Below, in pieces: positions 1-38,238 of a DNA stretch of 64,000 nt. Under the pieces are notes generated by a model. The model was not told where the DNA came from, did no database searches, and saw only the letters and a program-made list of their open reading frames with translations. The number at the start of each line of letters is the position of its first letter. Positions within the stretch are counted from its first letter, which is position 1. The position numbers and the translations under genes are program-made. This stretch comes from Naumovozyma dairenensis CBS 421 (taxonomy: Eukaryota; Ascomycota; Saccharomycetes; Saccharomycetales; Saccharomycetaceae), in contig NC_016489.1 of NCBI RefSeq assembly GCF_000227115.2, positions 1 through 64,000 on the forward strand, in the 5' to 3' direction.

Positions 1-144
1 TTGACGGACTTACGAACAGGCACTATACTGCACTATGAAAAACGAAAATGCTCAATAACAGACACTCCAAATATATTAAAGGCTCATTAGAGAGAGTAAA
101 TCACGGGCATTCAGGAAATATAGTTGTGGAATCTCCAAGTTGAA
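1..144. repeat. Direct repeat, copy 1 (left end of tandem subtelomeric unit)
   Basis: This block matches positions 5656-5799 in the same orientation, with about 4 mismatches in 144 bases. Similarity drops sharply after base 144 but continues weakly to about 550 (partner about 6200). The true left boundary is unknown because the window begins inside the repeat. It lies downstream of the 3' end of the first helicase gene, as the partner lies downstream of the second, so it marks the boundary of a tandem Y'-like unit of about 5.65 kb. Bases 145-654 otherwise hold only degenerate repeat sequence and no convincing gene. Confidence 0.9.
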
Positions 145-654
145 TACCGCATTTTTAGTAAGTCAAAGTATTTCCCAGCTATTGTAAGCCCAACGTAGCA
201 TCAAGTACTAATCAACAAAAACAAACATTCAAGAACTGATACCCTATGCCATCAGACTAGCCAATATTCCCTACAAAATGAAGTAGTTGCTATAATCAAA
301 GGTCTTTATTTGGAACTTCCACGGTCATGTGTTCATTTAGTTGTAACATCAAATTACAAAATTCAATATGTGAAGAACCATTACCTAGACATGAACTATC
401 GTATAACATAAGACAAAAACCAATTAATAAAGCATAACCAAATCTTAAATTCGAAACTAGCAATGATATTGATACAGTTATAGTCATTTTTGAAATATAC
501 CGAAAATTGACACTTTGGACAATAACGTAATAACATCTAAGTTTCATCAACTTTGTCGCTGTTGATCAGCTTATAAATAATTATTTAATAACTGAAAATA
601 AGAGTTATAATTAAAGATTTTTTTCTATTATATACATCTATTTCTAAAAACATG

Positions 655-3600
655 TTAAAAATTGGACCATTTCCAATACATTGCACCAATAACTTGATAT
701 AACGGCCTACTTTGGTCATGAGGAAATGTCACCTTCAACTTTTGGAGCTGTAACCAATGACTAAAAAAACCAACGGTGGGTAAGTCTGGGAATACTCTGT
801 AAACTAATGCTCTAAACTCTTCATTGTGAAAGATAGCAAATTGCATCATGATATATAGTTTCTGTTCTACTTTCACGGACGGAGCCTTTTTAGGTAAATT
901 CCTACCAATATATTCCTTCCTGGAATTGAAATCTTTGTTTTGGTCATAACCTACCATAAATTCAAGATAATCGAAACCTATAGCATCCAATAAATAGTCA
1001 ATCCTACCGCCATGTTGAATAACAAAAGCGTACCTCCCGTACCTGCTACTCCCAACTCTTCTTAGAGCTACAATCCTCTCATCAAATGACGACTCTGACA
1101 CAATGGACCATAACTCAGGCAATGTTAGCGTACTCCTCTTTGTAGAAAAGAAAGAGATTATATCTAACTTACGATTGAGTAATGATTCCCACATTATGTT
1201 GTATGTGCTGGTCATCTGTCCGTCATGTTTGAACACTCTTTCTGGGTAGCGTAACCTTCGGAAACCAATCATTGCGGTATAGAATTTGGACAATTTAGCT
1301 TCCACTAATTTTTTCATACTTACCTTATTTGTGACAAATTGTATCAAAACCCTGTGTAACCCACCATCTAAAATATTCCTCTTCACTCCATCAAACGATC
1401 CACCTGGTAAAACCGACTTATACAACAGCAACACTTCAAGACCGATTTTGCGGATACTAATTTGACTATCTTTCCAGCAAACACATCCTTCCACTTTTTC
1501 ACCAAGGCACTTGTAGCAAGTTTGAGCTGCACTTTTCAAAGGAAAATCAAAGTAGCTTTCTCCTACCCCATAAAAATGTAAGTATTTGATAGCCTCTTGT
1601 GGCAGTCCCGAAAAATCAAAAACATTAGTACAATTTCCAAACAAACTTTGTAGTATATCTTTTGTTGTATTCATTCTTCTTCTTTTGGGTGCCAGTTGCA
1701 ACTCCCCTCCTCTTGGTACTTGCGGATGCAAAGTGTTAATGGTTAGTTCAATATTCGCTGGTTCGATGGTATTGGCCATGGTTGGTTCCACTTCAATGGT
1801 TTCAATTCCTCCATCATTCTCCTCATTGGTAGTCGTTTCCACATTTAAGGTGTAGTCAGCCATATTTTTCAGTTCTTGGGTAATATTAACATCATTACCA
1901 CAACATAATTGATGGCCGATATTGGCTAGACCATAAAATTTGGAAACTTGGTTGGTGATGCACTTCTGGGGATCAACTTGTTGCTTGTCATCTTCACATA
2001 CACTTCTCCTGGTCCAATACGTATAACACAACCCACCTTGACGTAATCTCCCAGCAGTTTGAATATATTCTCCAACAGAAGGCAAATAATCAACAATAAG
2101 TACCATTTTCACCTCAGGTATGTCAATACTTTCTGAGACCAATTTTGTGCCAATCAGAATTCGTTTTGAAGAATCCTGAATGAAGTCCTGTAGTTTTTTT
2201 AACTTAACTTCGGTAGGCAAATCCCCATGGACCCAAATTGAATCACAAAAAGTAACGGCACCTAATAACTCTACGGTTGATTTCTCCCTGCAAACGATAA
2301 TTACTTTAGTATCGTCAGCATAGGTTAGAAATTTGGTAACAACATATTTAACCTTTTGAACAATAGCATCGTGGTCATCAAAATAATCAAAAGTTTTGAC
2401 GACATTAACCAACGGAACTGAGGTGACATAATTATAATAGAAAACCCCAGACCCAGTAATGTTCGTAGTTAAAGAATCACCAACGCCAATGAAGCGCAAC
2501 CCTTCTTTCATTAGGTTTTTACCTGCTGTTCCCGTCATACAAATTAGTTTCCAAGATAATGAAAAATTTATATCAGGGATAGATTTAAACGTGGAGCCAC
2601 GGTAGGATTGTTCAGTGACAAGATTATGAAACTCGTCAATTACAACCATACCTAAGAGAATATTCTGATATAATGTGTACCAGTCATTCATCATGGTGAT
2701 AAAATTATCTGATGCCAGGTCGCTGAAAGTACCGACATACACATTACACCTGAAATCCCCTTCGGCAACAGCAGGACCATTAGCAAATAAACTCTTAACA
2801 GCACCATAAGTTAAACCACCAGTAGACAATCTCAACCTCATATTGGTCTCAAGAGCAACATATGGAACAAAAACAAAGGATATGACATGGCTATGTTGTT
2901 GAGCAACAGCAACCAAAGGGAGTTGAATTAAGGCAGTTTTACCATACCCTGGAAGAGCTTGGATGGGAAATAGATGGGTTTCAGAAGCGTATATTTCCAT
3001 AGCACAATCAGATTGACCTTCACGGAACTTGAAATCTTTACCGTACACCTTCTCCCCACTACGATACAGATCTCTAAGGGATCTAGTTAAAGGAAAACCT
3101 CTTTTCTGACCGTTGGTTAAACCTTCTGCTTCTACCAACTCATCCTTTCCATAACCAAAACCTAACCATGCATGCCAAGCAGCTATAACCTTAATTGCAA
3201 AGATAATTTCAACAGTAGTCATACCAGCAGCAGCCCGTGAGTGGTCAACACCATAAACAGACGTTCCTGTAGCAGCAGAATGACCTGCCAGATTTTCCTT
3301 TGTGGCCATGGTGGTAACATCTTCACCATCAGCTTCTACATAATTCCTCAACAGAGAAACCATACCATGACGCATCTCACGAAAACCTAACCTCATATGG
3401 GAATCAACTTTGGACGGATATATTTTGAGAAAAGCGGCGAATTGTCTATAATTGATAAGAGTACCTGCAGCAGGGTCCACAAATAGAAAGGATTGGAGTA
3501 TATTGTCTGTGAACTCTAATGATGACATTTCAAGACCATCAGCTGGCCTGGCAACATCTATCTCTCTAATATCTTCACTGTCGTCATCATCTAATTCACC

Positions 3601-5370
3601 AAATAAATCACAATTCATACCATCAAAATCAGCACCAAGTTGGGAACGTAGGATGAGACGAAGAACCACAACATAGTAAAACATATAGTCTGATGTCATC
3701 TTGTCCAATACTTTATAACTTCTTTTACCATCTCCACTTTTAGAATATTGGGTAATTATTTCAATACATCTTGATACTGGATCGACAAAAAGATTACGTT
3801 GATTACCAGCATACTTAAGTACCAGCATTTCAGGAAAACGATATGGCCCACCAGCAGAAAAGTACACCATCCACATGATACACACACCCATTTCGGTAAT
3901 CTTCTTGATGATGGATTCCTTATCAGGTGCACATGTTGGTTTCAATGAAGGACAGATTCTTTGTAAAATAAATGAAGGGAATAACAATAACATCGAAACT
4001 TTGGGAACATTTCTATTTTCGTTCATGATAGCATGGCGAGAGTTCAATACGCAGTCAGCAGCCGCAGATACTGGCAGCAAGTTGTCGTAAAACTCCCTAA
4101 TATCGTTAAGGTTTTTTTCAAAACAGTTCTTTACATCATTATAAAAGACTTGGATGTAAGCTTTCGAAAACTTCTTGGAAGAGATCAGAACAGCATCTGG
4201 AGGAACTACTTTGGTGTTGAATTTCTTGTAATCTTGGTAAGCTTGGACAACTCTATGATAAATATTTGAAGTCCAGTTCCAAGATTCACTTACGTTTCTG
4301 TTGAAGAACATATCGTCGGCATTAGTGTCCAAAGAAGTGGTGACACGAACTAAGATACCGTAAGTGGCAAAGGCTTTAACACCATCAAAAAATTCACGAT
4401 ACGCATTGATTTTATGAACAACAGGAATTTCAGAAGTCAAACTAGTCCAATTGAAACAACAAACTCTCATCATGAGGATCCACAAAGCCGAATAATCACT
4501 GTCGGAGTGAACTGCATATAACCAGCTACTAACGGAATTGGCATCTTCAATAACATATTCGGGAATTGCAACGGTTGTAGCAAATGACAATCTATCTACA
4601 ATTTTGGCTAGGAATAAAAATGGTGCAACTAATCTAGCATACTTCTCTCTTGTTTCTTTCTTATAACTCCTTGGAAACGCTTCTCCTGAGGTGGGGTTAA
4701 CATAGGAATGGTGGATGTTTCTACGATGGTATAATCTTCTTACTTCGGGGTACCACGCAGAAAAGGCTCCTGAAGATAAATTTTCCATTTCAATTTTGTA
4801 AGCATGGAAAGACCGTAATAATTGTAAGTCAGCTTCATTAAACTTAATTTCTCCTACACACATTTCTTGTTCAAAGAAACTGGAGTCTCTTGATTGAATA
4901 ATATCTCTGGATATAGTGACGTTCAGGAAAGATTGGATATTATCAGTATCATTTTTATAATACAGGTATTTATTAGGTAATCCTTTAAGGCGAATAGGAA
5001 TGACTGAGTAGGTTTGAGATTCGGAGATGTCTTTTTTGGAAGTTCTTGAATTCACTGATTTAAAGCCTTCGTTAGTAGGATAGAACTTTTTTTCAATAGT
5101 GGTACAATTTTCAAACAACAAATGGCTGTTATGTGGAATCAATTCTGAGTTTGGATATTCAGTATGATAGCTAGTGATATCAAATAGGCGATCTTTATAG
5201 TTTGATACCATGGTGATTTCTTTGTTAGTTAACTTCCAGGTTGAGGTTTCATAATTCTTAATAACTTTCTTGGTAACATTGTTTTCACTGGTTTCAACCA
5301 TAACAAAGAAGCCATCAACAATACTGATGCGATCAGAAACATTAATACTTTGGCTATTCAAGTCTGACAT
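655..5370 (-). CDS. Subtelomeric SF2 helicase with N-terminal tyrosine-recombinase-like domain (copy 1)
   Basis: 1571 residues, ATG at 5370. The C-terminal half is a superfamily 2 helicase: Walker A GYGKT (K811), DEFH box (D912-E913), GTKLVSESIDIP (motif V, about 1080) and QTAGRLR (motif VI, about 1108). A C-x2-C-x8-C-x-C-W zinc-ribbon-like motif follows (about 1290-1310). The N-terminal half carries a tyrosine-recombinase signature: GPYRFPEML (R511), a lysine-rich hairpin (about 543-555), REMRHG (R664, R667) and GHSAATGTSVY (H697, Y706, spacing 9 as in Xer and lambda Int). The usual HxxR histidine is replaced by R664. Subtelomeric position resembles Y' helicases and fungal telomere-linked helicases. 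The reading frame is intact, so it may be active. The recombinase assignment is inferred from motif layout; the helicase assignment is secure. Confidence 0.85.
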   Translation of the reverse strand: MSDLNSQSINVSDRISIVDGFFVMVETSENNVTKKVIKNYETSTWKLTNKEITMVSNYKDRLFDITSYHTEYPNSELIPHNSHLLFENCTTIEKKFYPTNEGFKSVNSRTSKKDISESQTYSVIPIRLKGLPNKYLYYKNDTDNIQSFLNVTISRDIIQSRDSSFFEQEMCVGEIKFNEADLQLLRSFHAYKIEMENLSSGAFSAWYPEVRRLYHRRNIHHSYVNPTSGEAFPRSYKKETREKYARLVAPFLFLAKIVDRLSFATTVAIPEYVIEDANSVSSWLYAVHSDSDYSALWILMMRVCCFNWTSLTSEIPVVHKINAYREFFDGVKAFATYGILVRVTTSLDTNADDMFFNRNVSESWNWTSNIYHRVVQAYQDYKKFNTKVVPPDAVLISSKKFSKAYIQVFYNDVKNCFEKNLNDIREFYDNLLPVSAAADCVLNSRHAIMNENRNVPKVSMLLLFPSFILQRICPSLKPTCAPDKESIIKKITEMGVCIMWMVYFSAGGPYRFPEMLVLKYAGNQRNLFVDPVSRCIEIITQYSKSGDGKRSYKVLDKMTSDYMFYYVVVLRLILRSQLGADFDGMNCDLFGELDDDDSEDIREIDVARPADGLEMSSLEFTDNILQSFLFVDPAAGTLINYRQFAAFLKIYPSKVDSHMRLGFREMRHGMVSLLRNYVEADGEDVTTMATKENLAGHSAATGTSVYGVDHSRAAAGMTTVEIIFAIKVIAAWHAWLGFGYGKDELVEAEGLTNGQKRGFPLTRSLRDLYRSGEKVYGKDFKFREGQSDCAMEIYASETHLFPIQALPGYGKTALIQLPLVAVAQQHSHVISFVFVPYVALETNMRLRLSTGGLTYGAVKSLFANGPAVAEGDFRCNVYVGTFSDLASDNFITMMNDWYTLYQNILLGMVVIDEFHNLVTEQSYRGSTFKSIPDINFSLSWKLICMTGTAGKNLMKEGLRFIGVGDSLTTNITGSGVFYYNYVTSVPLVNVVKTFDYFDDHDAIVQKVKYVVTKFLTYADDTKVIIVCREKSTVELLGAVTFCDSIWVHGDLPTEVKLKKLQDFIQDSSKRILIGTKLVSESIDIPEVKMVLIVDYLPSVGEYIQTAGRLRQGGLCYTYWTRRSVCEDDKQQVDPQKCITNQVSKFYGLANIGHQLCCGNDVNITQELKNMADYTLNVETTTNEENDGGIETIEVEPTMANTIEPANIELTINTLHPQVPRGGELQLAPKRRRMNTTKDILQSLFGNCTNVFDFSGLPQEAIKYLHFYGVGESYFDFPLKSAAQTCYKCLGEKVEGCVCWKDSQISIRKIGLEVLLLYKSVLPGGSFDGVKRNILDGGLHRVLIQFVTNKVSMKKLVEAKLSKFYTAMIGFRRLRYPERVFKHDGQMTSTYNIMWESLLNRKLDIISFFSTKRSTLTLPELWSIVSESSFDERIVALRRVGSSRYGRYAFVIQHGGRIDYLLDAIGFDYLEFMVGYDQNKDFNSRKEYIGRNLPKKAPSVKVEQKLYIMMQFAIFHNEEFRALVYRVFPDLPTVGFFSHWLQLQKLKVTFPHDQSRPLYQVIGAMYWKWSNF

Positions 5371-5655
5371 GATTCCTTGGTGTCTTTATATTGAAAGGTA
5401 CTTCTGTTTGCGTTGTGTAAATAAGTGTTCTTTACATCTTCTTTGTGTTGCGTCTTATAAAATTTGCTAATTTTCGTTGTTGAAAAACTAAAAATTTTAA
5501 CGTGAACACATACAAACATAAAGAACACGTATGAACAACTACAGACAGAGACAAAACAAACAAAATAAAAGCAAATGAAAGATTAATACAAGGAAATCTG
5601 GTCTACTCGAACCGGGCTATCCGTATATACTGATAACTTTTTGTGATAATGAAAA

Positions 5656-5799
5656 TTGACGGACTTACAAACTGGCACTATACTGCACTATGAAAAACGA
5701 AAATGCTCAATAACAGACACTCCAAATATATTAAAGGCTCGTTAGAGAGAGTAAATCACGGGCATTCAGAAAATATAGTTGTGGAATCTCCAAGTTGAA
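5656..5799. repeat. Direct repeat, copy 2
   Basis: About 97% identical to positions 1-144, same orientation, offset 5655. It begins roughly 285 bases upstream of the first helicase start codon. Similarity outside this core decays quickly: 5800-6200 is recognisably related to 145-550 but with many changes. The short high-identity core, against strongly diverged neighbouring sequence, suggests recent homogenisation or a functional site such as a recombination junction. The leader 5371-5655 holds no gene. Confidence 0.9.
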
Positions 5800-6019
5800 A
5801 ACTGCGTGTGCAGTAATTCGGAGTAATCGGCACTTTTTGTTAGCCCCTATTATTTACGACCAAGAACTACTGGACGAAATCAAACATTCAGAAACTGGTA
5901 CTCTCCATCGTGATACTAGTCTATATTCCCTACAAAATGAAGTAGTTCCTACAATCCCAGCTCTTTGTTTGCAACTTCCACAGCCATCTGTCGTTTTTGG
6001 TGTGACATAAAAATGGAAA

Positions 6020-6520
6020 ATTTAATATATGACCAACCATGGACCAGGAACAAACTATATTTTAATACAAGACAATACCCAATTAATACATCATATACTG
6101 GCTTTAACTTCCCAACTAGCACCAATATTGACATGGTTATGGTCATAATTGGTGTGTGGCAAAAACTGACACTTTGACCGACGATATCTGACAAACCAGG
6201 GATGATGGATAAACTGTATTATACCAAAAGATGAGCATAATTATAGACAACATAATGAGACCTTAACTTCTGAACTACCATCCACATGGACCATGTTATG
6301 ACCAATAATGGTGAAATGTTGATAATTTAATTTTGAACAACTAATATATTAACAATCAAACATTATCGATGGACCATATTATTCTATAATGGAATACCAA
6401 TACAAACAAGCATATTAAATCTATTACTTCGAAACTACGACTAATATTGGTCGAGTTATTGGTGTTGGTAATTCTGAGAAATTTTGAAAAATTAATATTT
6501 TGTGAACCATTCTATTATAT
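6020..6520. repeat. Degenerate tandem repeats of about 150 bp
   Basis: At least three imperfect units can be aligned by eye (about 6030-6180, 6200-6350, 6365-6520). Each contains variants of GATGGACCAT, then an A+T-rich stretch, then ACTTCNNAACTA, then a GACATGGTTATG/CCAATAATGGTG-like end. The first unit is also present, diverged, at about 350-550. No coding capacity. The stretch 6520-7070 is A+T-rich with no feature I can support. Confidence 0.55.
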
Positions 6521-7070
6521 TAAATGATACTATACTATGTGGTAATATGCCATTAAAACTGTATTTTAAAATAATAAAACATTAGTAAACTATTATTATT
6601 TGCAGGGATACAGCCACAACAAGGGGTCATCTACTAATCATCATAACTTCATACCTAGTAAGGGGAAATATGTTTTTATAGGTTTATAATAATGTACAAT
6701 CTACAACTATATACATTTTAAATATCATGATTACATGTTTAAGAATAAACTACAAGATATATATCAGAAATGTCCAAAATTTGTTTATTTTTGATTATTA
6801 ATTATATTATATATCTTAAATATACTTGTTTAACGAAATTGTTATATATTGGTAACCTATATTAAACAAAAACCGGGAATTCCAGAAACTCTCTTTCAAT
6901 TCTTCAATATTAGCTATACAGATCTCCTTTCCAACTATGTTACTCTGCGATAAATTCTGATCATGACAATGTAATAATATTGATAGGTAACCACTATAAC
7001 TTTGGAAAATACTTACGATCGAACTTTCATCAGACTTCCGATAAGATCATTGTGTCCACATAATTGTTAC

Positions 7071-7201
7071 CTGTTCGAATCCCATGGGTGGCAAGTAGGA
7101 TTTACCATTTGATGTCTGTTCGAATCCCATAGGTGGCAAGTAGGAATTACAATTGTCACAAGTAGGAATTACAATTGTAACAAGTAGGAATTACAATCCG
7201 C
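7071..7201 (+). repeat. B-box-like words and 22-bp direct repeats
   Basis: Two copies of a unit starting CTGTTCGAATCCCAT (7071 and 7116) each contain GTTCGAATC, an exact match to the RNA polymerase III B-box core. They run into three 22-bp repeats of the type CAAGTAGGAATTACAATTGT with GTAGG starting at 7140, 7162 and 7184. Isolated GGAATTACA words recur near 7310-7380. No tRNA cloverleaf can be folded: the bases flanking the T-loop-like word do not pair. These may be tRNA-derived debris or TFIIIC-type sites. Confidence 0.6.
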
Positions 7202-7248
7202 GAAGATAGTGCAAGAAAAAGCCGCTTTGGTGAGGCGCTAACAGTGTA

Positions 7249-7258
7249 ACACCCATAC
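7249..7258 (+). promoter_or_regulatory. Candidate Rap1 site
   Basis: ACACCCATAC matches the first ten positions of the Rap1 consensus ACACCCATACATT. It lies just beyond the 3' end of the second helicase gene inside a subtelomeric repeat region, where Rap1 sites are expected. Single short match, so tentative. Confidence 0.35.
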
Positions 7259-7393
7259 CGCGAAAAACTAAACTGTCAAGATTTTTTCGGGATGTCTGGG
7301 TTCTAGAAGGAATTACATGGCGGACAAGGAGGAATTACAATTTTCAAAAAACACACCTTAAGCGCGCCTAGTAGGAATTACATGAAAACAAGC

Positions 7394-10300
7394 TTAACTA
7401 TGTAAAAACAGGAGGAAATGCGTAATGTGCAAAAACGTGTCCTCCCACATCATATTATAACACCTTGTCATGACCATATCATTGCTAAACAACTCACCAG
7501 GCACCGGTAACTTAGGTTTGCTAACAATAATTTCACAAAATTTGGCTAGAACACTAGTCTTGAATTTATCAAGTAAAATAGATTTCGAACGACCATATTT
7601 CAACATGACAGCATGGAGGCCCCTATCGAGGCAATGCTTCCTCACACCATCAAATTCTTTTTCTGACATGATCATTTTCAACAACAAAATAAACTCAAAC
7701 CCAAATCTTCTCACCTTAGCAGGACCAAGTTCCCAGCAGACACATCCACCATCTTTAGCACCAAGACAATCAGGACAAGGATTCTCAACAACAGACAAGG
7801 GGAAATCCAAACAACTTTCATTCAAACCATAAAAAAATAATTGTGAACAGAGTTTGGATGGAATTCCAATAAATTCAAATACATTCTTAGCAGAACCAAA
7901 AAGACCATTAATCTCGTCTTTCATGGATATTATTCTTCTTCTTTTATTAGGACCATGATCAAACGGTAAAAGGACAATTCTTGGGGTAGGCAATATTTCA
8001 TCACTATTATTATTATTATCATCATTTATACTATCCTCATTCACCAATCCACGACTACTATTTTCCAAATTATCAGGCATATCTACCTCATTACTTAAAC
8101 CTGGAAAACTACTATCATTAGAAGTAATAAAATTATCAGATTGATCCATATCTGGACCCAAATCCTCAAACACAGAAGACTCATTAGCAGAAGAAAATGA
8201 ATGAACATTACCAACATGTTCAGAATCACCAATACTAGCACCCACTTCCACAACTCTTGGACGACCATCACCATTCAAATAATGATACATATTAGCAACA
8301 TCTTCTGGGATATTATGATGATGACCACAACATAAATCATGACCGTCGTAATTCAGATCATAAAATTTGGATACCTGTTTAATAATGCAAACATCTGGTC
8401 TCACTGAACTTGTCTGAACACTTCTCTTGGTCCAATAGGAAAGACATACCCCACCTTCACGCAACCTACCTGCCGTCTGGATATACTCCCCAATTGATGG
8501 AAGGTAATCAAGCATTATCACCAACTTGACTGCTTTGATATCAATACCCTCTGACACCAACTTCGTCCCTATCATTATTCTGCATTTCTCATCCTCAATA
8601 AATCTTCTTGATTTCTTAATCTTCTCTTCAGATGGTAAATCCCCATGAACCCATTCAGAATCTTGCCTGAAATACAACTTCTCAACAGTAACCTTCTCCT
8701 TGCAAACAATAATCACCTTGGACTTGGTATCATACTCCATGAATCTATCTACCAACTTTTCCACCTCAGTCTCTGCCACAGTAGATCTTTCAAAAACTTG
8801 GAACTTCTTCACAATATTCTTGAGAGGAATTTGATTAACCAAATCAAAGTACAAGATTCTGTTCTTATTGGACACCATCGACGTACACATCTCCTTGTCA
8901 TAACCAATAAATTTCATAGGTTTGACCATACCCTTTTCACCAGCAGTACCTGTCATCACCACCACCTTCCAAGCAAGATTAAAGTTAATCTCAGGAATCA
9001 ATCTAAAAGATTGTCCACGGTACGATTGTTCAGTCTCTAAGTTGTGAAACTCATCAATGACAATCATACCTAGAATACACTCTTGATATATATTGTACCA
9101 ATTATTGACCAACCGGACAAAATTCTCAGAACCTAAATCGTTAAAGGTGCCAACGTAAACATCACAAAACAAATTCTTCTCTTCAACAGCTGGACCATTA
9201 ACAAACAGATCCTTGAGAATACCACAGTTGATACCACATGAAGATAGTCTGAGCTTCATATTCGATAGCAAACAAACATAAGGGACAAACACAAATGAAA
9301 CAGTCTTTTGTTCACCATAAGATAGTGCAACCAAAGGAATCTGAAACAGAGCAGTTTTCCCAAAACCTGGAAGAGCTTGGATAGGGATGATCTGAGTGCC
9401 TGATAAATAAATTTCCACAGCAACATCAAATTGACCTTCTCTGAATTGAAATTCCTTACCATACAACTTCTTACCGGCAACAAACAAATCTTTGATAGAC
9501 CCATTTGATGAAAAGTATTTCTTGACACATGCATTCTTAGCTACAGCAGACTCACCTTCTTCTTTTTCTTTGCCATAACCAAGCCCCAACCAATTCTGCC
9601 AGGCACTATTGATTAAGGAAGCGTATTTCTCCTCCAACGACGCATCCGACCCAGTACCAGTTTCAACATCATTGGCATACACAGATTGACCTGTAGCCGC
9701 AGAATGACCAGCCAACCTCTCCTTCATGTTCATCACTTCGAAACTCTCACCCTCTACTTTAACGTATTCCCTAATAAGCTTGATCATCCCGTGCCTCATC
9801 TCTCTGAAGGAGAGCCTGGAGGTTCCACTAATTGATGCAGGGTACAGTTTCATAAACGCAGCAAACTTGCTATAATTCATCAACGAATGTGACACGCAAT
9901 CAACAAATACAAAGGAGTTTAACACAATCTTTGAGTATCTAACCGGATCCCAGTCTTCCTCCGATTCACCATTACCAACAGATCTTGACAGATAATTTCT
10001 TAACAAATACTGTTCCGCCACTGTATTAGTATCTTGGAATAAATCCTTGCTCATACCATCATAGTTCTCACCCATGGAGTGTTTCAATACAGCCCTTGCA
10101 ACAAAAATATAATAAAACAAATAGTCAGACGTTTGTTTATCCAACGTCTTGCACAAGTATTCCTCACGTCTTGTCTTGGAATATGAAGTGATGATTTCCA
10201 AACATCTGGTTTCTGGATCGATAAATAAGTTTCTGTTGTTACCAGCGTATTTCAAAATAACCATGTCAGGAAAACGATAAGGACCAGTAGCAGAAACGTA

Positions 10301-11797
10301 TATCATCCACATTACACACACACCCATATCTGATACAATTTGTGTCACAACGTCGGTGTCGAGTGTAACTTCTGGAACAGTTTGTGGCATTTGCAAAGAC
10401 AATTGTTTTTCTGTAAATAAAAGAAACAATGAATCCTTGGGAGCAGCTCTACTTTCACAAAAATTGGAGTTTGCTCCGGAATTTAAAAGGGTGTCGGCAA
10501 TATGTTTCACGGACCAGAGCTTGAGGAAGTAATGTTTTAATTTATCAATGTTGCCATCAAACCTGGCAGTCATGTTGGTATAAAATTCTTGGATGTACGT
10601 TCTGGAGAATCTCTTACCAGAGATCAAAACGGCATCCGGTTGGCACACCTTGACGTTAAACTTATTGTAATCCATGTAGGCAGTGGTCAACCTTTGATAC
10701 ATAGTTTTGGTCCAATTCCAAGATTCACTGACATGATTAAAGAAGATTTCGTCAGCCTTTGAATCACCAGGAATGACTCCGTTATTGAGATATCTATACA
10801 AAACAGAATAAGTGGCCAAAGCCCTAATGGAGTCCACAAGTTGACGATAAGTATTTAAAGTATGTACGTCAGGATAGGCCACAGAACCATCCGTCCAGTT
10901 ATAACAAGATATTCTGAACAATAATACCCACATAGAGGAGTTGGAACCTGGTAATAATCTTGTAGTAAACCAATCAGCCATGGATGCAATGGATTTGGGA
11001 GGCGCAATTTCTACCTCAGCGGTGAAACCTTCAGCAAACGACAATTGAGGGAATACTTCGATCAAGTAAATAAATGCTGCACCTAAGGAAGCATACTTCT
11101 GGATGGTAGGTATTTGTAGATCCTTGGGGAACACTTCACCGAAGCCACCATTAACGAACGAATGGATGTATGGACGGCGGTGATAGTTTTCTCTAACAGA
11201 TGCGTAAATTTTAATAAATATCTCGTAGACAGATTCAACAAATTGTGGTTGAACTTGGTGATAATTCTTTAAGATATTCAAATCTGTATTTGAGAACTTG
11301 ATTTCACCTACGTTCATTTCTTGTTCAAAAAATGAAGAGTCTCTAGAGTGAATAATGCTTCTTTCAACAGAGAAATCGAGGCCACCAGTGAGGGAAGTAC
11401 TTGCATCTCGATAATATAAATATTTGGTAGCTTTCTTCTTGAAATGGACAGGAATGACAGTGAATGATTGTCCACGTTGACGGTACTTTTTGGAGGTCCT
11501 AGCGTTAATGATTGCGAACCCATCATCTGTGGTGTAAAATTCCCTTTCGTAGGTAGTACAGTATTCAAACAATTCCTGCGATGCAACAGGGATAAGACTG
11601 GAATTGGAGTAAGCGGTTTGGAATTCATCGAGGTCCACCAATTTTTGATTGGATTGTTTTGTTCTTTCGACGAAAGAGAAGTACCTTGTCTTTTCGGTGA
11701 GTTGTTTGATAGTCTTGGTTTCGACACCATGTTCATCTTTGGAAGTCAGAATAACATAGCCATCTATAACAGCGACTGTTTCAGATATAGTAATCAT
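7394..11797 (-). CDS. Subtelomeric SF2 helicase with N-terminal tyrosine-recombinase-like domain (copy 2, short C-terminus)
   Basis: 1467 residues, ATG at 11797. Clear paralogue of the product of 655-5370, roughly half identical in conserved stretches. Walker A GFGKT (K814), DEFH (D915), GTKLVSEGIDI and QTAGRLR are present, as are the recombinase-like boxes GPYRFPDM, REMRHG and GHSAATGQSVY (H698, Y707, spacing 9). The same arginine replaces the HxxR histidine, so that feature is family-wide. An Asn/Ser/Asp-rich spacer lies before the C-terminal C-x2-C-x8-C-x-C-W motif. The protein stops about 170 residues before copy 1, ending FLLFLHS. That same ending, with its stop, recurs at 16377-16430, so the short end is probably an older variant form. 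An array of 20-21-bp repeats sits 257-432 bp upstream. Confidence 0.85.
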   Translation of the reverse strand: MITISETVAVIDGYVILTSKDEHGVETKTIKQLTEKTRYFSFVERTKQSNQKLVDLDEFQTAYSNSSLIPVASQELFEYCTTYEREFYTTDDGFAIINARTSKKYRQRGQSFTVIPVHFKKKATKYLYYRDASTSLTGGLDFSVERSIIHSRDSSFFEQEMNVGEIKFSNTDLNILKNYHQVQPQFVESVYEIFIKIYASVRENYHRRPYIHSFVNGGFGEVFPKDLQIPTIQKYASLGAAFIYLIEVFPQLSFAEGFTAEVEIAPPKSIASMADWFTTRLLPGSNSSMWVLLFRISCYNWTDGSVAYPDVHTLNTYRQLVDSIRALATYSVLYRYLNNGVIPGDSKADEIFFNHVSESWNWTKTMYQRLTTAYMDYNKFNVKVCQPDAVLISGKRFSRTYIQEFYTNMTARFDGNIDKLKHYFLKLWSVKHIADTLLNSGANSNFCESRAAPKDSLFLLFTEKQLSLQMPQTVPEVTLDTDVVTQIVSDMGVCVMWMIYVSATGPYRFPDMVILKYAGNNRNLFIDPETRCLEIITSYSKTRREEYLCKTLDKQTSDYLFYYIFVARAVLKHSMGENYDGMSKDLFQDTNTVAEQYLLRNYLSRSVGNGESEEDWDPVRYSKIVLNSFVFVDCVSHSLMNYSKFAAFMKLYPASISGTSRLSFREMRHGMIKLIREYVKVEGESFEVMNMKERLAGHSAATGQSVYANDVETGTGSDASLEEKYASLINSAWQNWLGLGYGKEKEEGESAVAKNACVKKYFSSNGSIKDLFVAGKKLYGKEFQFREGQFDVAVEIYLSGTQIIPIQALPGFGKTALFQIPLVALSYGEQKTVSFVFVPYVCLLSNMKLRLSSCGINCGILKDLFVNGPAVEEKNLFCDVYVGTFNDLGSENFVRLVNNWYNIYQECILGMIVIDEFHNLETEQSYRGQSFRLIPEINFNLAWKVVVMTGTAGEKGMVKPMKFIGYDKEMCTSMVSNKNRILYFDLVNQIPLKNIVKKFQVFERSTVAETEVEKLVDRFMEYDTKSKVIIVCKEKVTVEKLYFRQDSEWVHGDLPSEEKIKKSRRFIEDEKCRIMIGTKLVSEGIDIKAVKLVIMLDYLPSIGEYIQTAGRLREGGVCLSYWTKRSVQTSSVRPDVCIIKQVSKFYDLNYDGHDLCCGHHHNIPEDVANMYHYLNGDGRPRVVEVGASIGDSEHVGNVHSFSSANESSVFEDLGPDMDQSDNFITSNDSSFPGLSNEVDMPDNLENSSRGLVNEDSINDDNNNNSDEILPTPRIVLLPFDHGPNKRRRIISMKDEINGLFGSAKNVFEFIGIPSKLCSQLFFYGLNESCLDFPLSVVENPCPDCLGAKDGGCVCWELGPAKVRRFGFEFILLLKMIMSEKEFDGVRKHCLDRGLHAVMLKYGRSKSILLDKFKTSVLAKFCEIIVSKPKLPVPGELFSNDMVMTRCYNMMWEDTFLHITHFLLFLHS

Positions 11798-12035
11798 TTC
11801 TAAACCATTAGTTGTTTGGGTTCTCTTGTGATGGTAAAGAGGATTATGAGAGGTAATGTAGGCTGATCTTTATTTAAGCAAACAAACAAGTACACACGAA
11901 ATATTACAGAGGGTTGTATGTTTGGGAAACACGGAAACATGCTGGAAAGGAAGTACACGTAAATACTATACAGAAGGGTAAACAAACGATATACGTATAA
12001 CAGCTTTGATTGTGACAAGATATTTCCAATATGTG

Positions 12036-12048
12036 GCACCCATACATT
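12036..12048 (+). promoter_or_regulatory. Candidate Rap1 site upstream of helicase copy 2
   Basis: GCACCCATACATT matches 12 of 13 positions of the Rap1 consensus ACACCCATACATT. It lies about 240 bp upstream of the helicase start codon at 11797 and directly abuts the phased repeat array that follows. Rap1 binds subtelomeric and promoter sites of this form in budding yeasts. Confidence 0.5.
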
Positions 12049-12053
12049 TATGG

Positions 12054-12229
12054 TGTAGTAGACCTTCATTGCCATGCAGTTGACCTTCAAAAATTGTAGT
12101 CGACCGTCAAGGCAATGTAGTCGACCGTCAATCTCTGCAGTTGACCGGCTGGAAATGCAGTCGACCGTCATTTTTCTCAGAAAGGCGCGCAGTGTAGTAG
12201 ACCGTCACCGCCCATGCAGTGCACATTCA
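12054..12229 (+). repeat. Phased array of eight short repeats (TGYAGTHGACCKTCA)
   Basis: Eight copies of a 15-bp word close to TGYAGTHGACCKTCA start at 12054, 12075, 12095, 12116, 12136, 12156, 12193 and 12215. Spacing is 21, 20, 21, 20, 20, 37 and 22 bp, close to two helical turns, while the 5-6-bp spacers vary. A degraded ninth copy may lie at about 12249. Conserved words with variable spacers look like binding sites for one protein on one DNA face. The location upstream of helicase copy 2 suggests an operator, silencer or iteron-like element. No such array precedes copy 1. Confidence 0.8.
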
Positions 12230-12261
12230 CGCGCTAACAAAAACAAGGCACTACACCTTCA

Positions 12262-14829
12262 AGAATTTTGAACCTAAATAATTTAACCAAGAAATCCCCC
12301 GGAGTACATACTGGTGTCTATGGTGTTTATCACTTCATAAATGTACGTAGATTTACCATCTTGCTTCTTTCCTCTTTGTTTTGTTTTTTTGGACTCCTGC
12401 TGGCTAAACTCGCGGTAAAAACAGAAAATTAAAACAAATGGGCTCTGTAGGTCCTCAAATATTATCGCTTTTAACGTGTATTTTGGTAAGTTTTGTTTAC
12501 TTTTGGAATTATCCACCATAAGTTATGTACCGATAATTGGTCTTCACAACTGCTCCTGACTGGCGATATGCATAGCTAAGCACAACATAACAGCAACTAA
12601 AACACCAATATTCTACATCAATCGCTATTTTAATTTACCAATATGTTTAATATCAGCACTAACTTTAAAAATCTAAAACTAAATGTTTCAGTGTCTGTCA
12701 TTCGCCCTGGTTGCAGTTATATTTAAAAAGGATGGATAAGATCCTGTAGGGTCATCAACAGCGAGCAACTAACATCGTTGCTCGCTGGATAGACTACATA
12801 TGAGGTGAAAATAATATTTATTTCTTATCCAAAAACTGACACCTTAACTTTGTTTATTATAATACGTAAATATAATAACTGGCTGTCAAAATATTATAAT
12901 TTATCAATTATTATTTCTGTAAATGTAAATATTAATTTAAGTGAATTAATAATAAATATTGAATAATTTTACAATTCACGAAACGAAACATTGATTAAAG
13001 AAATACTTCTTTACTTTTGATTGTCTATAAGTCATCCTTGAATAAAATCTCCCGATCATTTAACATGTCTTCATATATGGAACTTGCTCCTGATATTTAC
13101 TTACATACTATAGTAAAACCAACAAGTAGCTAAATATGGTATTCAAGAAAGAGTTACTTAGGGCTTTTTATCATGGAATTTTAATAATTTACCAAATGTT
13201 TTCTGTACCAATTGTCACGTCAACTAACGATTTGCTCGGTTTTTGCTCAGACGCTATTACGTTAGGTGCATTGGGGCTTACCTTACCTTGGAAGAAAGTA
13301 TCACAAGAGCTTATTTAATTTTCAACTGATAGTTTCTCACAAAAAGTAGTAGCATTAAGAATTTAATTAAAGTTTGTGTTGCATTCAGGAAAAGAAACAA
13401 GAGCTGTATGCTGGTTAAATGAGTTTCAGAAGTGGCATTTAGGTCACTTTGTTTTTGAAAAATCGGTTTGTAGGGTGCGGAATACATGTACTTAGATTAA
13501 ATTTTTTACCCAACTTATTGATTATGAAGTAAGTCTATTTTACAGGGGTCGTGTAACAGTCTCAGGCCTCTGAGATGGGCTCAAATCAGCATAAGGAATA
13601 GATTCTACGGCATTTTTGTCCGCGGATATATTGTTTTAGGGTTTCTATTATAAGGTACTTCTAATAATTGTCTGTACTTATATATATTTCATACAAAGGA
13701 CAGAATAGTGTAACCGAATAATGTTATAAAGAGTCTTATCTCATATATTCTTCAAGTTGAAATTCCCTTATAAAACCATTTACCACGAATGTAATAACTT
13801 GGTTATTATTGTTATTGTTTTAATAGTTTGTTATGTAGCTCTGCTTCTATATTTCATATTTCTGACACTCAGCAAGAATGATCTCTGATACTCCTGGATG
13901 TCTGCATCTCGTGAAATGGGCTTTTTTGCTAAAACGTCTTCTGGGTGGTCAACTAGGAGTAATCATTTTGAGTAACTTGAGAACTCATTGGAGAGTAAGG
14001 TAATGGGTTACCATTATCGAAGTTCTGGTTGTTCTTTTCTACTGATAGCCCTCCAAATATGAAAAATTTCAGTTCCTTCTTTTCTTTTGTATTGTCTTAT
14101 TACTTCTTCAATAAGAAATCGAGAATAAGAAGTATGAAGAAGAACAATTTTTTCTTTATGTCTGCTACGAATTAATATGTGTGGTATTTATCATTCTGAT
14201 TTTTGATTAATTTCGTTAAGATCAAAAGCTTCGCAATAGGAAGGGGAAGCTATCAGAAATAAGTCGGTATCAAGAATCAAAGTGAATGTATAAATAGAGG
14301 AATAAACGTGAGCAATTATTGACATAGAAGGTACGTTGGTTGTGTGATTTCTGGACACCGTAAAGTGGAATGTGATACACAAGTGGCTATTTGTTGGCGA
14401 TGCAAGCGGAATTGAGGGTGGTAGTTATGATATCAAAATCCAATAGGGCAATCTGATCAAGGTTGATAGATATGGCATATCAGATAATGGTATTTGACCT
14501 ATATTTTCTCAGGAATACTATAGACTGCATTCTATAGTATAGTACTGTATACAGCGATTCCTTGTTCCTTTTGCCGTTGAAGCGCAGCGCCTTACGCGGA
14601 TATTCACAATCTTCCGCGTTTTTCTATTCTCACAGCAGATGAACGATGAGGTTCCAAAATTTAACATAGATAGATAAAACTTTCATCACATGGACGTCGT
14701 CTACCATCAACAATGGAACAGAACCGAGGTTGGCATCCATAACTAGCACCATTAATAAGATTTTTTCAAGCTGATATATGTCCCAATCAGAAGCTGACAC
14801 AGGAACAAAAACAAACGAAGAGTTTTTAC
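12262..14829. other. Long non-coding stretch, degenerate subtelomeric DNA
   Basis: About 2.6 kb without a gene I can support. Small open frames (for example 12283-12519 minus, 13136-13318 plus, 14191-14382 minus) show no recognisable motifs. The stretch 12840-12980 is very A+T-rich. I see no tRNA and no recognisable LTR. Confidence 0.6.
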
Positions 14830-15798
14830 ATGGAATTTGCCTTTATCAACGGCTTAAAGTTAAGGAAACCATTTCCGGAGTCAAGAATAGAGAATAAAAT
14901 TTGGGGGTTCCTATCAAACTGTTTCTCTAATAGCAGCACACCGTCTACAAACACATACTCCGTAAAACAAGAAAGTTGGATTTTAGATGAACCTACTACT
15001 TTTGCTCTGGATAACCGAGTGTCGTCAAGTTGGATTTTCAAAGAGTGTATCATGAAATATTTCTTTACTGATAAAGGACGTAGTTTCCCTAATACTATGT
15101 TAGAGACTCCGTTCCACAAACAGATGTTAAAAGGTGATACTTCCACTCTACTTGTATTAGGTCCAAACCTTTTTAAGGAAGAAGGTTTCTATTCTTGTGA
15201 TATCGAAGAAGCAGGTAAAGAATTAATTAAAACTAAATATCATTTTTCTGCTGTAGACTTCTGGGGCTTACTCCAAAGTATACATCTTCTTACAAATGTT
15301 CAGTATGAGGGCTATTGTTATAAGGAATGCTGTAAGTTATCTAGGACTCTCGGCAAACCAACTAAGATGTTATTTTTACCGCCCTCTCAATATTCCAGCA
15401 TTCCACTTCAAGCTATATTTTATGGGTTTTCTAAGGAGGATGCAATAATATACAGGGATTTGTTGATTGTTTACAGAATTCGAGCAGTCCGGCGTGGTTA
15501 TAAACCAACAATGACTAACGTCTTGAATGTGTTTTTCGATCCACCGTATGAAATATATGTCATCCCTTCCATGCATGGGAGCGATTCCAAGGAAGAATAT
15601 ATCGAAGTGAATCATTCTGAAGACGTCACAGAAGAGGAACGTCAGACTTATCAAGCATACTTTATGCTGAAAATGAAATACATGTTGGGTGATAAATTGA
15701 ACTACTCCACATTTTCTGAACTACTTGAGGATACAAATCATGCCTATTCTGAGAGTGTATATCTAGAGGAGTCTAATCCCTTCGAGTCTCAAGTCTAA
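14830..15798 (+). CDS. Orphan protein of 322 residues, function unknown
   Basis: Intact open frame from ATG 14830 to TAA, in otherwise decaying subtelomeric DNA. I do not recognise the family. The sequence looks like a folded, soluble protein: mixed hydrophobic and charged residues, a cysteine cluster (YCYKECCKL, about 160-168), aromatic-rich central part and an acidic C-terminus. No signal peptide, membrane segment or low-complexity tract. It shows no visible similarity to the two helicases. Frame integrity over 969 bases, with relics on both sides, argues that it is or recently was a functional gene. It may be a lineage-specific subtelomeric gene. Confidence 0.6.
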   Translation: MEFAFINGLKLRKPFPESRIENKIWGFLSNCFSNSSTPSTNTYSVKQESWILDEPTTFALDNRVSSSWIFKECIMKYFFTDKGRSFPNTMLETPFHKQMLKGDTSTLLVLGPNLFKEEGFYSCDIEEAGKELIKTKYHFSAVDFWGLLQSIHLLTNVQYEGYCYKECCKLSRTLGKPTKMLFLPPSQYSSIPLQAIFYGFSKEDAIIYRDLLIVYRIRAVRRGYKPTMTNVLNVFFDPPYEIYVIPSMHGSDSKEEYIEVNHSEDVTEEERQTYQAYFMLKMKYMLGDKLNYSTFSELLEDTNHAYSESVYLEESNPFESQV

Positions 15799-18608: not shown

Positions 18609-20616
18609 ATGGACACCAATTTGATACCTTTAGATAGTCCTTATGAAGAAAAGGATGCTAGAAATTTGAGAAATTTTTATAAACTTCAAAATGCATGTGC
18701 TACTCTGAATGAATCCATTAAAGTTATCTATGAATATTCTCCATCATTTGAAGAAAGAGAATATATGACAAGGAATGGTAATCCCTTAGAACAAACCATT
18801 GCCAACAGTCCTGCCGTGCATGTAGCAAATTACTTAACAAACATGCGAAATTCATTTGATTTGGAAGCTATTTTCAAAGCTCATCATTTCGAAAATGGTA
18901 AATCTCCTGTCGATAAATTTATTTCATATCCGGTTTGTACTGATCCTAATTTAGAACATTTAGCATTCATTCATAAAAGTTTACCAAACATGAACGTCAG
19001 ATTAACGGAATTACAGAAGACTATCATGAGTAATGAACGTCTTGAATTTTTAGGTGATAGTTGGTTGGGTGCCTTCATTGCATTTATCATATATAAAAAA
19101 TATCCGTACGCTAATGAAGGTGCTTTATCTAAAATGAAAGATGCAATTGTAAATAATAACAATCTCGAAAAACTAAGTGAAAAATTAGGGTTTAAAGAAC
19201 GTTTAAAGGAAAATATCCCACGTTCCTCTATGAAGATTAAAGATAGATTGACCAAACATTATGCGGATTGCGTGGAAGCATATATTGGAGCTTTAGTCGT
19301 TGATAGGTTTGCCACAGAATTTAAAGATGTTTCAGATTGGCTTGAAGAACTTTCTACTGAACATTTTGAAAACTTAGGACCATTAATGTTCAGAGAACCT
19401 TTAAACAGGAATGCAAAAGGTGAATTGGGTGAGCTATTACAATTTAATAATATTGGAGCCAAAATTAATTACACAAAGCTTACTGAAAACTCGCCATTTA
19501 GCGTTGAAGTTTATTTAGGTGACATTTTCTTGGGTAAAGGTGACGGACCTAACATCAGAGAAGCTGAACAAAGAGCTGCTATGGCAGCCTTGGCTGATCA
19601 TGCATTAATACAGAAATATTCCTCCTATGATATAGAAGTAGACAAGAAATACCTTGGCGGTTCAAATGCTTCTAATCCTGCCTTGTCTACTGATTCCCCT
19701 ATCGATATAACAGAGGTTGATAATGATAATCGACTAGAAACTTCTGTAAAAGATGTAGAATCAATTCAAGAACATGAGTACATGATACCAAACCAACTTA
19801 ATAATTCATATGAACCATATGCTGCTATGACATCACAAAAACATCATTTGACTCCTTTAGAAAAACAATCTCAAGAAGTTAACAAAAAGCCCCAGGAGTT
19901 TACTCTACCTGTAGATAATCAACCTCAGGTGGAAGCAGCTCCTCTTCCTCCTGTTACATCTTCTAATGTAGACCAGATTATGGCTGAGGTAATGCAAAAA
20001 ATGAGCACAATGATGACATCAATGGTAAGTGAAACAGTGTCAGAAGTATTGAAGAAATCAATGCCGGTGGCATCTAAACCAACGTTGCCTTCTTTATCTC
20101 CTTTAGCTATCCCCACTGCCAACGCTGATTCACAACTTCATAAAGCACATCTTCCATCAAAAGCTACCACAGGTATATTGCCACCACCACCCATGGGGAC
20201 AACTCCTCTAGTTCCAAAACCATCTTCGATTGGTAACGGTATCGTCCCCCCACCTCCTGGCATGGCACCTTTACCTCAACAAACTCCAATGCACTTCCAT
20301 GCCAACCGAACCAGTGGAGCATCGTCATTTTCATCATCTGCTCCTGGCAATCGTAATGAAAGCTATGATAAAGAAGCATCAGGTAAATTATATGCTATGT
20401 TAGGTAAAATAGGACTTTATCCTGAATATATTATCGAACAACTATCTATAGATCATTTTGTTGCTACATGTAACCTCAAAGGATTAGGGATCCATCTTGG
20501 TACAGGGGAAGGAAGAAGTAAAAATTTCCCAACATATTGCTGCTGAAGATGCATTGCATAGTGATGCCCTCCAAAAAATCTACGAGGAGAGAATTCGATC
20601 ACTTGCAGTTCTTTAA
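18609..20616 (+). CDS. DCR1: Budding-yeast Dicer, frameshifted in the second dsRNA-binding domain
   Basis: RNase III family enzyme. The domain order (N-terminal domain, one RNase III domain, dsRBD, long linker, second dsRBD) is that of the non-canonical budding-yeast Dicer, which makes siRNAs from long dsRNA; Rnt1 has only one dsRBD. The RNase III signature NERLEFLGDS begins at residue 142, and all four acidic metal ligands are present (E146, D150, D220, E223). dsRBD1 spans about 270-345. The 350-580 linker is Pro/Ser/Met-rich. The second dsRBD starts near 588, but at codon 638 (20520-20524, a run of five A) the annotated frame runs to an early stop at about 20546. The conserved remainder (AAEDAL...) continues in another frame to a stop at 20614-20616. 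This is either a sequencing indel or a real lesion; the catalytic part is untouched either way. Confidence 0.88.
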
Positions 20617-33975: not shown

Positions 33976-34356
33976 TTATGCAATGTGTGTGTACAATAAA
34001 GAAAAAAAAACTACGAATTTATACCAAGGATAAAACTCCGAAATTCTTAATATTACATAGAATCGTGATTCATCTTAAGCTGATTTATGTATGGTTCTTT
34101 CAGCAGAGATGAAAGATTTAGTATGAAAAAAGATAATGTTATGTTTGTTCTATAATGATACATTAATATATGTTTGTATGAATGTTTTTAAATAAATAAT
34201 ATTGTACTAGTAATGACAAAGGAAGAAATCATTATTAGACGATGTCATTAGTAGTAGTAATAGTAGTAGTAGTAGTAAGAGCGGTTTTAGAGGGTAAGAT
34301 AAATTTATAAATTTGGTGTTTGGGGTATGCAATTATGCACAATGAACATTATTTGA
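33976..34356. other. Convergent UTP14/RPM2 intergenic region with GTA repeat
   Basis: 381 bases, A+T-rich, with a short (GTA)n run at about 34247-34277. Presumed overlapping terminators; no gene. Confidence 0.5.
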
Positions 34357-37300: not shown

Positions 37301-38238
37301 GCCATTATTGAATTTTTGAATAAAGAAGATAATAAAATGTTATAAATTGCATTTGAAGGTTTCAATTTATTATTTATAATATCTTGATAACAAGATAACA
37401 TTTCAAACATTTTATTATCCAAGTCAAATTTATCCATTAATCTTTTTGAAATGGAATCTAATATTTTTTCAAATGTTTCAATTGGTGGAATAATATTATT
37501 ACGTTTTAATGAATGATAAAGGGAATTTATTTTATTAAAATCTTGCATTAGGTAAGCTTTATTAATTTCATTAATATGAGTGGATAAATAAGTTTTTGGA
37601 TTCAAAGATGTTTCAGTATCTATTTCCCAAGGAGATGATGAGGGTATGTGCGTAGTATTAGTGGTAGTATCTGAAGCTACCGATGTTTGTGATTGTGATT
37701 GTGATTGTGATTGTGATTGTAATTGTAATTCATTTGAGTTTGAAATTTTCTGTGTATTAAATAATGTAGTTGTAGTTGTAGTTGTTGTAGTTGAATAAAA
37801 TCTTTTATTGAGGGTATTGGCAGCACCATTAATTATTGCAATAGATTTTCTTCTATTATTGTTATTATTATTATTATTTGTAGTATTGTTGTTGTTATTG
37901 GTATTTTTCAGTATATAGAAATTTCTTGATGAATTATTCTGATTATTATTTGAAGTGTTCGGTACAATTTTGGTCGTTGTTGATGTTGATTTCTTTTTCT
38001 GTATATGGAAATTTGGATCTCTATAGAGTACATCATCTAAATTATTATAATTTGTATTTGCTACGACGACAGGATGTGGTTGTAAAGTAGTTATACCATT
38101 TGAATTTGGTATTGATGGGTCAATATTGAAAACAGCTTGATTTTGTCTTAGATGATTATATGATGAATCGAAAAAAGTAGTAGCATGACGATGATACCCT
38201 TTTGAGCCCAATTTATATTTGATTGATTTGAATGCCAT
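34357..38238 (-). CDS. RPM2: Mitochondrial RNase P protein Rpm2
   Basis: 1293 residues from ATG 38238, whose product begins MAFKSIKY like S. cerevisiae Rpm2 (MAFKS); an upstream in-frame TTG at 38313 is rejected. Protein subunit of mitochondrial RNase P, which processes 5' ends of mitochondrial tRNAs; the S. cerevisiae protein also affects P-bodies and nuclear transcription. Family landmarks are FFDSSYNHLRQNQ, HPVVVANTNYNNLDD and a long helical-repeat body. The N-terminal 200 residues carry Asn, Thr and (QS)n tracts, and further Gln and Ser runs occur at about 340 and 670-690. These homopolymers account for the extra length over the 1202-residue S. cerevisiae protein. PRE8, next to it in S. 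cerevisiae, is missing. Confidence 0.92.
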   Translation of the reverse strand: MAFKSIKYKLGSKGYHRHATTFFDSSYNHLRQNQAVFNIDPSIPNSNGITTLQPHPVVVANTNYNNLDDVLYRDPNFHIQKKKSTSTTTKIVPNTSNNNQNNSSRNFYILKNTNNNNNTTNNNNNNNNRRKSIAIINGAANTLNKRFYSTTTTTTTTTLFNTQKISNSNELQLQSQSQSQSQSQTSVASDTTTNTTHIPSSSPWEIDTETSLNPKTYLSTHINEINKAYLMQDFNKINSLYHSLKRNNIIPPIETFEKILDSISKRLMDKFDLDNKMFEMLSCYQDIINNKLKPSNAIYNILLSSLFKNSIMAIHLQNSNGQDFFKIAIELFKTINQQQQQQQHHHTHTNIQLSKDTINYTLIAINLYPGFIDINHLISYINNSPFLIKNSLYFISLLNYSTLINNNTKLKELFNEYTLYSQQGTNNNTTLKEDKFKIISIYISGLVETSNIDLATSLLDQTLNEIKQTNGLNSNISLLLSKYLISMSKINPESSYEMWIKFNKLNWIPEFSYDFYLQLMNNSFHNWTLTKKIYNYIFPMKRSFHNNHKSLNSINISENAYECILFPMDSYKVIDSLLDYSLQLNDTEIILKLCQESLIKSFNFNINLYPLLFEFLKNNLNWPQDYLLDFITTHTSLLLVSSESESSTSSSSSSSSSSSDNFLNFLNAIINNYHDKDLLLKISQSTAFKNGLNQLSFQLSPSLLSNNIQLESKFNGLFKIFKNIWQCPKTFESYPNLLELYSIIIIKFFDFNLYPLSPVIQQQQQQQPLLNFIKETITNYKTLLINYQRANPYANVQLSSIVKESITLIATHEEIPEEVITFYLNSEENIDSQTPSIINLGPSLRNSFKTAIKDFNTLLKKGYSFDFDTYKTLIMHRYINKTIISTALELSPSELETKQIINLIIKNCPIDNLENEVINHPLFYSKILPLVNDRSLKRLTTTTNIWETLPDFLNFIKSIDFPNNFKNIQNQITFKETIEAIYNRLFNQFKDYQTIVKFNKICPNLNSEQLLLSLIRSGEYEKYETLSYKYSKDPLLKEETFPLIQAEFLINTGKFDNALENLNNMIDQLPNDTDNNIPERLIDLYTFASFLKSLYMTDSDDITINPKLNSKINNTLQAANLFSMQNNFSNMIELHEQLFPYSSQLTMETTTSKPTSTNSAVLEQMLNNLYDSLSLVDIETSSVLKQYKRKLKNYLRFKYYIKLPTFQLDEVKTLITIWNEINTHEIDCLFNNIIETMYLNPRAQQLFFENDMVLNFNKLQFNELISHIENAYESKNNNDNLVKVHKLKEFLQI

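Follow-up and report, generated by a model that had tools for sequence, protein, structure and literature searches.

Y' elements are helicase-encoding repeats of yeast chromosome ends, and their origin and function are given as unknown (PMC2994660, cited, like the other papers here, from excerpts). Their structure suggests a mobile-element origin and Y' circles occur in survivors (PMC11042809); the YRF1 genes read toward the telomere (PMC10867151). We analysed the left end of contig C11 of Naumovozyma dairenensis (positions 1-64000, hereafter the window; the genome comprises 13.5 Mb in 11 contigs), which carries two tandem Y'-type elements, each encoding a protein of three modules: a Sir1 domain, a recombinase-like domain and a superfamily 2 (SF2) helicase (Table 1). 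As with Saccharomyces cerevisiae Yrf1 (Y'-Help1), the genes are subtelomeric and multicopy, can lie in tandem, point toward the telomere and encode an SF2 helicase. The initial annotation of this DNA had proposed a system apart from the Y' elements. That proposal was not supported: the proteins resemble members of the Y' helicase family, and the recombinase boxes described below occur as well in a protein of Huiozyma naganishii (KNAG_0K02690, P0006 in our alignment). Sequence comparison suggests that Y'-type helicases in general probably contain the recombinase-like domain, which has been overlooked in them.

The two proteins, copy 1 and copy 2, are 42% identical. Pfam recognised the Sir1 and helicase domains in both and returned nothing significant between residues ~140 and ~780; the Sir1 domain was also found in the relatives L011, P0005 and P0001. 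The boxes claimed at R511, R667, H697 and Y706 of copy 1 were confirmed as GPYR511FPEM, R664-E-M-R667-H-G and G-H697-S-A-A-T-G-T-S-V-Y706, and those claimed in copy 2 are present as GPYRFPDM, REMRHG and GHSAATGQSVY, ending at Tyr 707, so that their conservation between strongly diverged paralogues is borne out. The His-to-Tyr spacing of 9, likened to that of Xer, recurs in all 8 family rows of our alignment and in 79 of the 79 Xer-type rows counted. The lysine of the proposed Lys-rich hairpin is probably K544, which falls between predicted strands, but the profile alignment pairs it with XerD K175 and not with K172; K553 is likewise conserved.

The eight aligned rows are copies 1 and 2, L011, P0001, P0005, P0006, P0007 and a provisional segment of S. 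cerevisiae Yrf1 that does not come from a database record (32% identical to copy 1 across the helicase and the recombinase-like region). Twenty-nine columns are invariant, including R511, K544, R664, R667, H697 and Y706, so that all six residues are also present in the provisional Yrf1 segment. Between residues 484 and 735, copies 1 and 2 share 113 identical columns, and 29 of these stay invariant in the other six rows. R511, R667, H697 and Y706, named before any relative was compared, all fall among the 29 (hypergeometric probability 0.0037, or 0.024 counting R/K/H/Y columns only; 0.0072 and 0.049, respectively, without the provisional Yrf1 row). For all six residues the corresponding figures are 1.9e-4 and 0.002 (5.3e-4 and 0.008 without that row), and these are biased because K544 and R664 were chosen after the alignment had been inspected. 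By these alignments, the conservation of the boxes moderately exceeds what chance would give.

The genome holds at least 41 stretches matching the family. Thirteen genomic copies were aligned, a count that includes the window copies and near-duplicates and leaves short decayed fragments (e.g. L019 and L020) outside; R511 and K544 are kept in 11 of the 11 copies that span them, and R664, R667, H697 and Y706 in 12 of 12. The four residues singled out at first are all kept in the homologues. All seven terminal loci with long frames read toward the contig end (C2, C3, C4 and C5 right; C3, C9 and C11 left), and N-terminal pieces of the family occur at the left ends of C4 and C6. Most internal copies, possible products of transposition, carry stops. 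The centromere-side flank (11798-13600) matches 21 stretches including itself, at many ends. No telomere repeats were found in the 14 contig-end stretches inspected, nor at the window start. At L017 (C2:105000-113500), two Y'-type copies lie tail to tail around a 20-N assembly gap with X-like flank on both sides, which is either a relic of an end-to-end fusion or a scaffold misjoin.

Substitution patterns were compared over residues 491-740. The ratio of nonsynonymous to synonymous substitution rates (dN/dS) is 0.22 between copies 1 and 2, and 0.09 between copy 2 and L016 (dN 0.145, dS 1.62, the latter near saturation). Recent pairs with few changes give higher ratios (0.35 on 7 changes for L016 and L017a; 0.37 on 34 codons for copy 1 and L015). 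These ratios indicate purifying selection on the recombinase-like domain. In L011 (C2 right end; L011:679-4344) and L012 (C3 left end; L012:631-4281) the three helicase motifs checked (Walker A, DEFH and motif VI) have been lost, and the frames are still open (1221 and 1217 amino acids). For these two loci, dN/dS is 0.24 over residues 491-740 (10 changes), 0.26 in the helicase part and 0.79, on 8 changes, over residues 371-490. All six recombinase-like residues are intact in both, and their retention where helicase motifs were lost suggests a separate job for them; recent loss of the motifs, or a structural role of the residues, are possible alternative readings. Single Walker A changes are seen in L010, L014 and L015.

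A further pattern concerns the boundary between the two modules. Over residues 480-705, copy 2 shows 67-74% nucleotide identity to six loci (L014, L016, L018, L009, L010 over 306 nt only, and L017a), and over residues 740-1020 the identity to the same loci is 94.5-97.7%; L013 alone is similar to copy 2 in head and tail alike (98.7 and 97.7%). In L016, L009 and L010 the switch comes near residue 720 of copy 2 (window position 9640), 13 residues past Tyr 707; in L014 it is less sharp. These copies look like mosaics of older, different heads joined to recently shared helicase tails. Exchange at the end of a recombinase domain would give such mosaics; the most parsimonious mechanism is ordinary gene conversion of the tail.

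We then compared the domain with known recombinases. In local profile alignments, the only ones used (a global alignment gave a meaningless end match), the C-terminal half is in register with Xer-type recombinases, and at low threshold R511 aligns to XerD R148; the relation to Xer/Cre recombinases is in register and weak. For one low-confidence predicted model of the domain, Cre takes ranks 1 to 3 by VIA-align, and the N-terminal half of the domain is weakly Cre-like. Ndc10, Flp, Xer and topoisomerase IB were not among the structural matches listed, an absence that we do not count as evidence. The predicted fold is thus not clearly unrelated to tyrosine recombinases, but the models are too weak to serve as proof. 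A sequence-profile search of PDB gave no match up to E 10. PF00589 had no match over the whole genome, with 14 of 14 control genomes positive. Family alignments compared with viral and prokaryote collections gave 30 and 25 pattern stretches, none of them confirmed. A protein search aimed at stand-alone relatives of the domain found none, and none of the three protein searches for relatives retrieved S. cerevisiae Yrf1; from the 13 proteins of one such search, 6 ordinary bacterial-type helicases (P0008-P0013) were set aside. Family-wide conservation, the profile alignment and the rank of Cre in one structural re-ranking give moderate support to the initial claim of a recombinase-like domain before the helicase, which had overlooked both the Sir1 domain and the replacement of the second catalytic His by Arg. 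We consider it quite probable that the domain descends from the recombinase/topoisomerase-IB fold.

The likeness to Xer/Cre recombinases lies in the order R..K..xxxR..H(9)Y. The differences are the Arg-to-Arg spacing (156 here, against a median of 98 and a range of 87-181 in Xer-type rows), the fusion to Sir1 and helicase domains, and, ahead of the second Arg, an Arg where Xer-type recombinases have His. Cryptons, Gcr1 and Cbf2/Ndc10 are also fungal recombinase-derived proteins; unlike them, the proteins described here keep the proposed active-site residues and are fused to helicase and Sir1 domains. In Saccharomycotina, Kojima and Jurka detected derived genes only and no insertions of Cryptons; among those genes are Gcr1 and Cbf2, whose Crypton-like recombinase regions do not preserve the catalytic site (PMC3212892). 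GCR1_C, the CryptonF mark, is not among the Pfam matches of the family proteins. Telomere-linked RecQ helicases (TLH) share with our proteins the subtelomeric location of a helicase gene, but the Ustilago copies are described, in the excerpt, with RecQ and OrsD (PMC10532341). Neither OrsD nor a RecQ-specific domain was matched by Pfam in the family proteins, which gave only Sir1, DEAD, Helicase_C, ResIII and weak others. In some TLH, boxes resembling GGPxRxxE and GHSxxTxxxY seem to precede the helicase. Among the open-licence PubMed Central papers listed, judged by titles, abstract beginnings and excerpts, no report was found that links a tyrosine recombinase with Y' helicases or with telomere-linked ones.

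The reading that we favour, at slightly better than even confidence, is that the two elements act as follows. The Sir1-type domain would bind the origin recognition complex (ORC), as expected from the Pfam match, and recruit the protein to subtelomeric DNA where ORC is bound. The recombinase-like domain would nick the DNA, become linked to it through Y706 and reseal it, R511, K544, R664/R667 and H697 surrounding the phosphate. It would exchange strands between repeats flanking Y' units, resulting in release of a circle, reinsertion at another end or resolution of a tandem array, and the SF2 helicase would open or extend the exchanged DNA. Of this, the architecture, the conservation, the purifying selection, the position and direction at the chromosome end and the weak in-register likeness to Xer/Cre were observed; catalysis, the DNA site and mobility, the self-mobility suggested by the initial annotation included, are inferred. 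More tentatively, and with clearly less confidence, we speculate that the Y' elements of the Saccharomycetaceae, those of S. cerevisiae included, are tyrosine-recombinase mobile elements, each encoding an enzyme of its own for strand exchange joined to a helicase; that, at least in this host, P0001 and P0005, a fused Sir1 domain also steers them to ORC-bound ends; and that between copies it is the recombinase head that diversifies rather than the helicase, and that this head would set site specificity.

As for the DNA site, the initial annotation had correctly noted direct repeats between the units (1-191 and 5656-5846, 89%; 202-501 and 5861-6160, 72%). We rejected the long repeat as an attachment or recombination site: it is the start of a ~500-bp ordinary telomere-side flank, which recurs at the left ends of C9 and C4 and the right end of C2. 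Another candidate is GTMGACCGTCA, with 5 copies in the window at up to one mismatch against 0.61 expected, a number reached in 0 of 100 shuffles. Genome-wide it has 16 exact matches (12 for the reversed control pattern), and 15 of the 16 occur, two to four together, in the centromere-side flank at both ends of C3, the right ends of C4 and C9 and the left end of C11; the clusters are not independent because they were inherited along with the flank. Such arrays may be promoter sites or recombinase-arm sites. Separately, just downstream of copy 2 (window 7064-7382), we observed ~22-bp repeats with AGTAGGAATTACA, 6 copies at up to one mismatch against 0.2 expected; 4 of the 6 exact genome-wide matches lie in this interval.

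Several observations depart from what a tyrosine recombinase would show. The position three before the second Arg, a His in 75 of the 79 Xer-type rows (4 are without it), is Arg 664 in 8 of 8 family rows and in 12 of 12 spanning copies. In topoisomerase IB, the position of the second catalytic His is taken by Lys. Published definitions, as excerpted, require His at this place, whether as part of the pentad (PMC4381057) or of R-H-R-Y (PMC3212892). The distance from R667 to H697 is 30 residues against 16-24 in Xer-type rows, the box-I half of the profile alignment scores no better than shuffles, and Foldseek on both low-confidence models gave no match below E 0.4. No recombinase was called in Pfam (full proteins; 8 family members up to E 10), NCBIfam or PHROGs. 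Because of Arg 664, the R667-H697 spacing and the absence of such a call in the hidden Markov model (HMM) libraries, we name the domain recombinase-like and not a canonical tyrosine recombinase.

These points bear on two other explanations. According to the first, the domain derives from a recombinase or topoisomerase IB and now serves, as part of a telomere-maintenance helicase, to bind DNA or to nick and reseal it, Y' elements spreading only through the homologous recombination of the cell. The replaced His, the gene conversion that would explain the shared helicase tails and the precedent of Gcr1 and Cbf2 in the same yeasts fit it, as does the use of Y' as a donor in homologous recombination (PMC11042809, excerpt). 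Yet a mere DNA-binding relic need not keep the Arg, Lys, Arg, His and Tyr that every spanning member examined has kept, and we regard this explanation as rather unlikely. Still a little less likely is a chance or convergent likeness in an unrelated helical domain, with R511 to Y706 serving helicase coupling or DNA binding: low model confidence, the lack of significant Foldseek or HMM matches, the box-I half, the conserved boxes expected of any conserved domain with 29 invariant columns and a P of only 0.02-0.05 for the four named residues among R/K/H/Y columns would suit it, but residue order, the His-Tyr spacing of 9, the profile alignment in register and the three leading structural matches, all of them Cre, agree across methods, and two copies that lost helicase motifs retain the box residues.

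Table 1. Features of the two Y'-type elements and their flanks in the window
Feature	Position	Strand	Basis
Copy 1, Y'-type protein (Sir1 domain, recombinase-like domain, SF2 helicase)	655..5370	-	Open frame of 1571 aa, domain matches, relatives
Copy 1 Sir1 ORC-binding domain, residues 11-137	4960..5340	-	PF11603, E 5.9e-32
Copy 1 recombinase-like catalytic domain, residues 388-740	3151..4209	-	Conservation, predicted structure, profile alignment
R511, proposed first catalytic Arg	3838..3840	-	Invariant in 8 rows; 11/11 spanning genomic copies
K544, proposed hairpin Lys	3739..3741	-	Invariant; between predicted strands
R664-E-M-R667, proposed box II (Arg at Xer His position)	3370..3381	-	Conservation, profile alignment
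H697 of copy 1	3280..3282	-	Conservation, profile alignment
Y706, proposed nucleophile	3253..3255	-	Conservation, profile alignment
Copy 1 DEAD-type helicase domain, residues 785-953	2512..3018	-	PF00270, E 1.9e-8
Copy 1 helicase C-terminal domain, residues 1012-1109	2044..2337	-	PF00271, E 1.1e-14
Copy 2, paralogue of copy 1	7394..11797	-	Open frame of 1467 aa, domain matches
Copy 2 Sir1 domain, residues 3-128	11414..11791	-	PF11603, E 4.2e-34
Copy 2 recombinase-like domain, residues ~384-740 (Tyr 707 at 9677-9679)	9578..10648	-	Conservation
Copy 2 helicase domains, residues 793-1112	8462..9421	-	PF00270, PF00271
Telomere-side flank of copy 1 (direct repeat)	1..501	+	Repeat comparison
Telomere-side flank of copy 2 (direct repeat)	5656..6160	+	Repeat comparison
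Centromere-side flank, X-like, recurring at other chromosome ends	11798..13600	+	21 matching stretches including itself
GTMGACCGTCA, 11 bp, x5 (one with mismatch), candidate binding or recombination sites	12058..12207	+	260-410 bp upstream of copy 2

Other features of the window lie beyond the elements. A 334-amino-acid frame at 14794-15798 (+), for which Pfam gave no match, belongs to a multicopy family with 38 matching stretches including itself, of which 21 lie no more than 20 kb from a contig end. A budding-yeast Dicer gene (Dicers_N, RNase III and double-stranded RNA-binding domains by Pfam) occupies 18609-20546 (+), so that the host species probably has RNA interference, encoded beside mobile-looking subtelomeric elements. 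Between 32001 and 38000 the GC skew is strong (0.27-0.34) and GC content falls to 0.24 at 34001-38000; a 1293-amino-acid frame (34357-38238) overlaps this stretch.

If the recombinase-like domain works as we propose, it would help to explain the nature and movement of long-puzzling chromosome-end repeats. The yeast group is described, in the excerpts cited, with Flp-type plasmid recombinases and Crypton-derived genes that have lost their sites only; among its members this would be a recombinase-type domain that seems intact. Moreover, it would supply a testable enzyme for Y' circles and for the spread of Y' elements in telomerase-negative cells.

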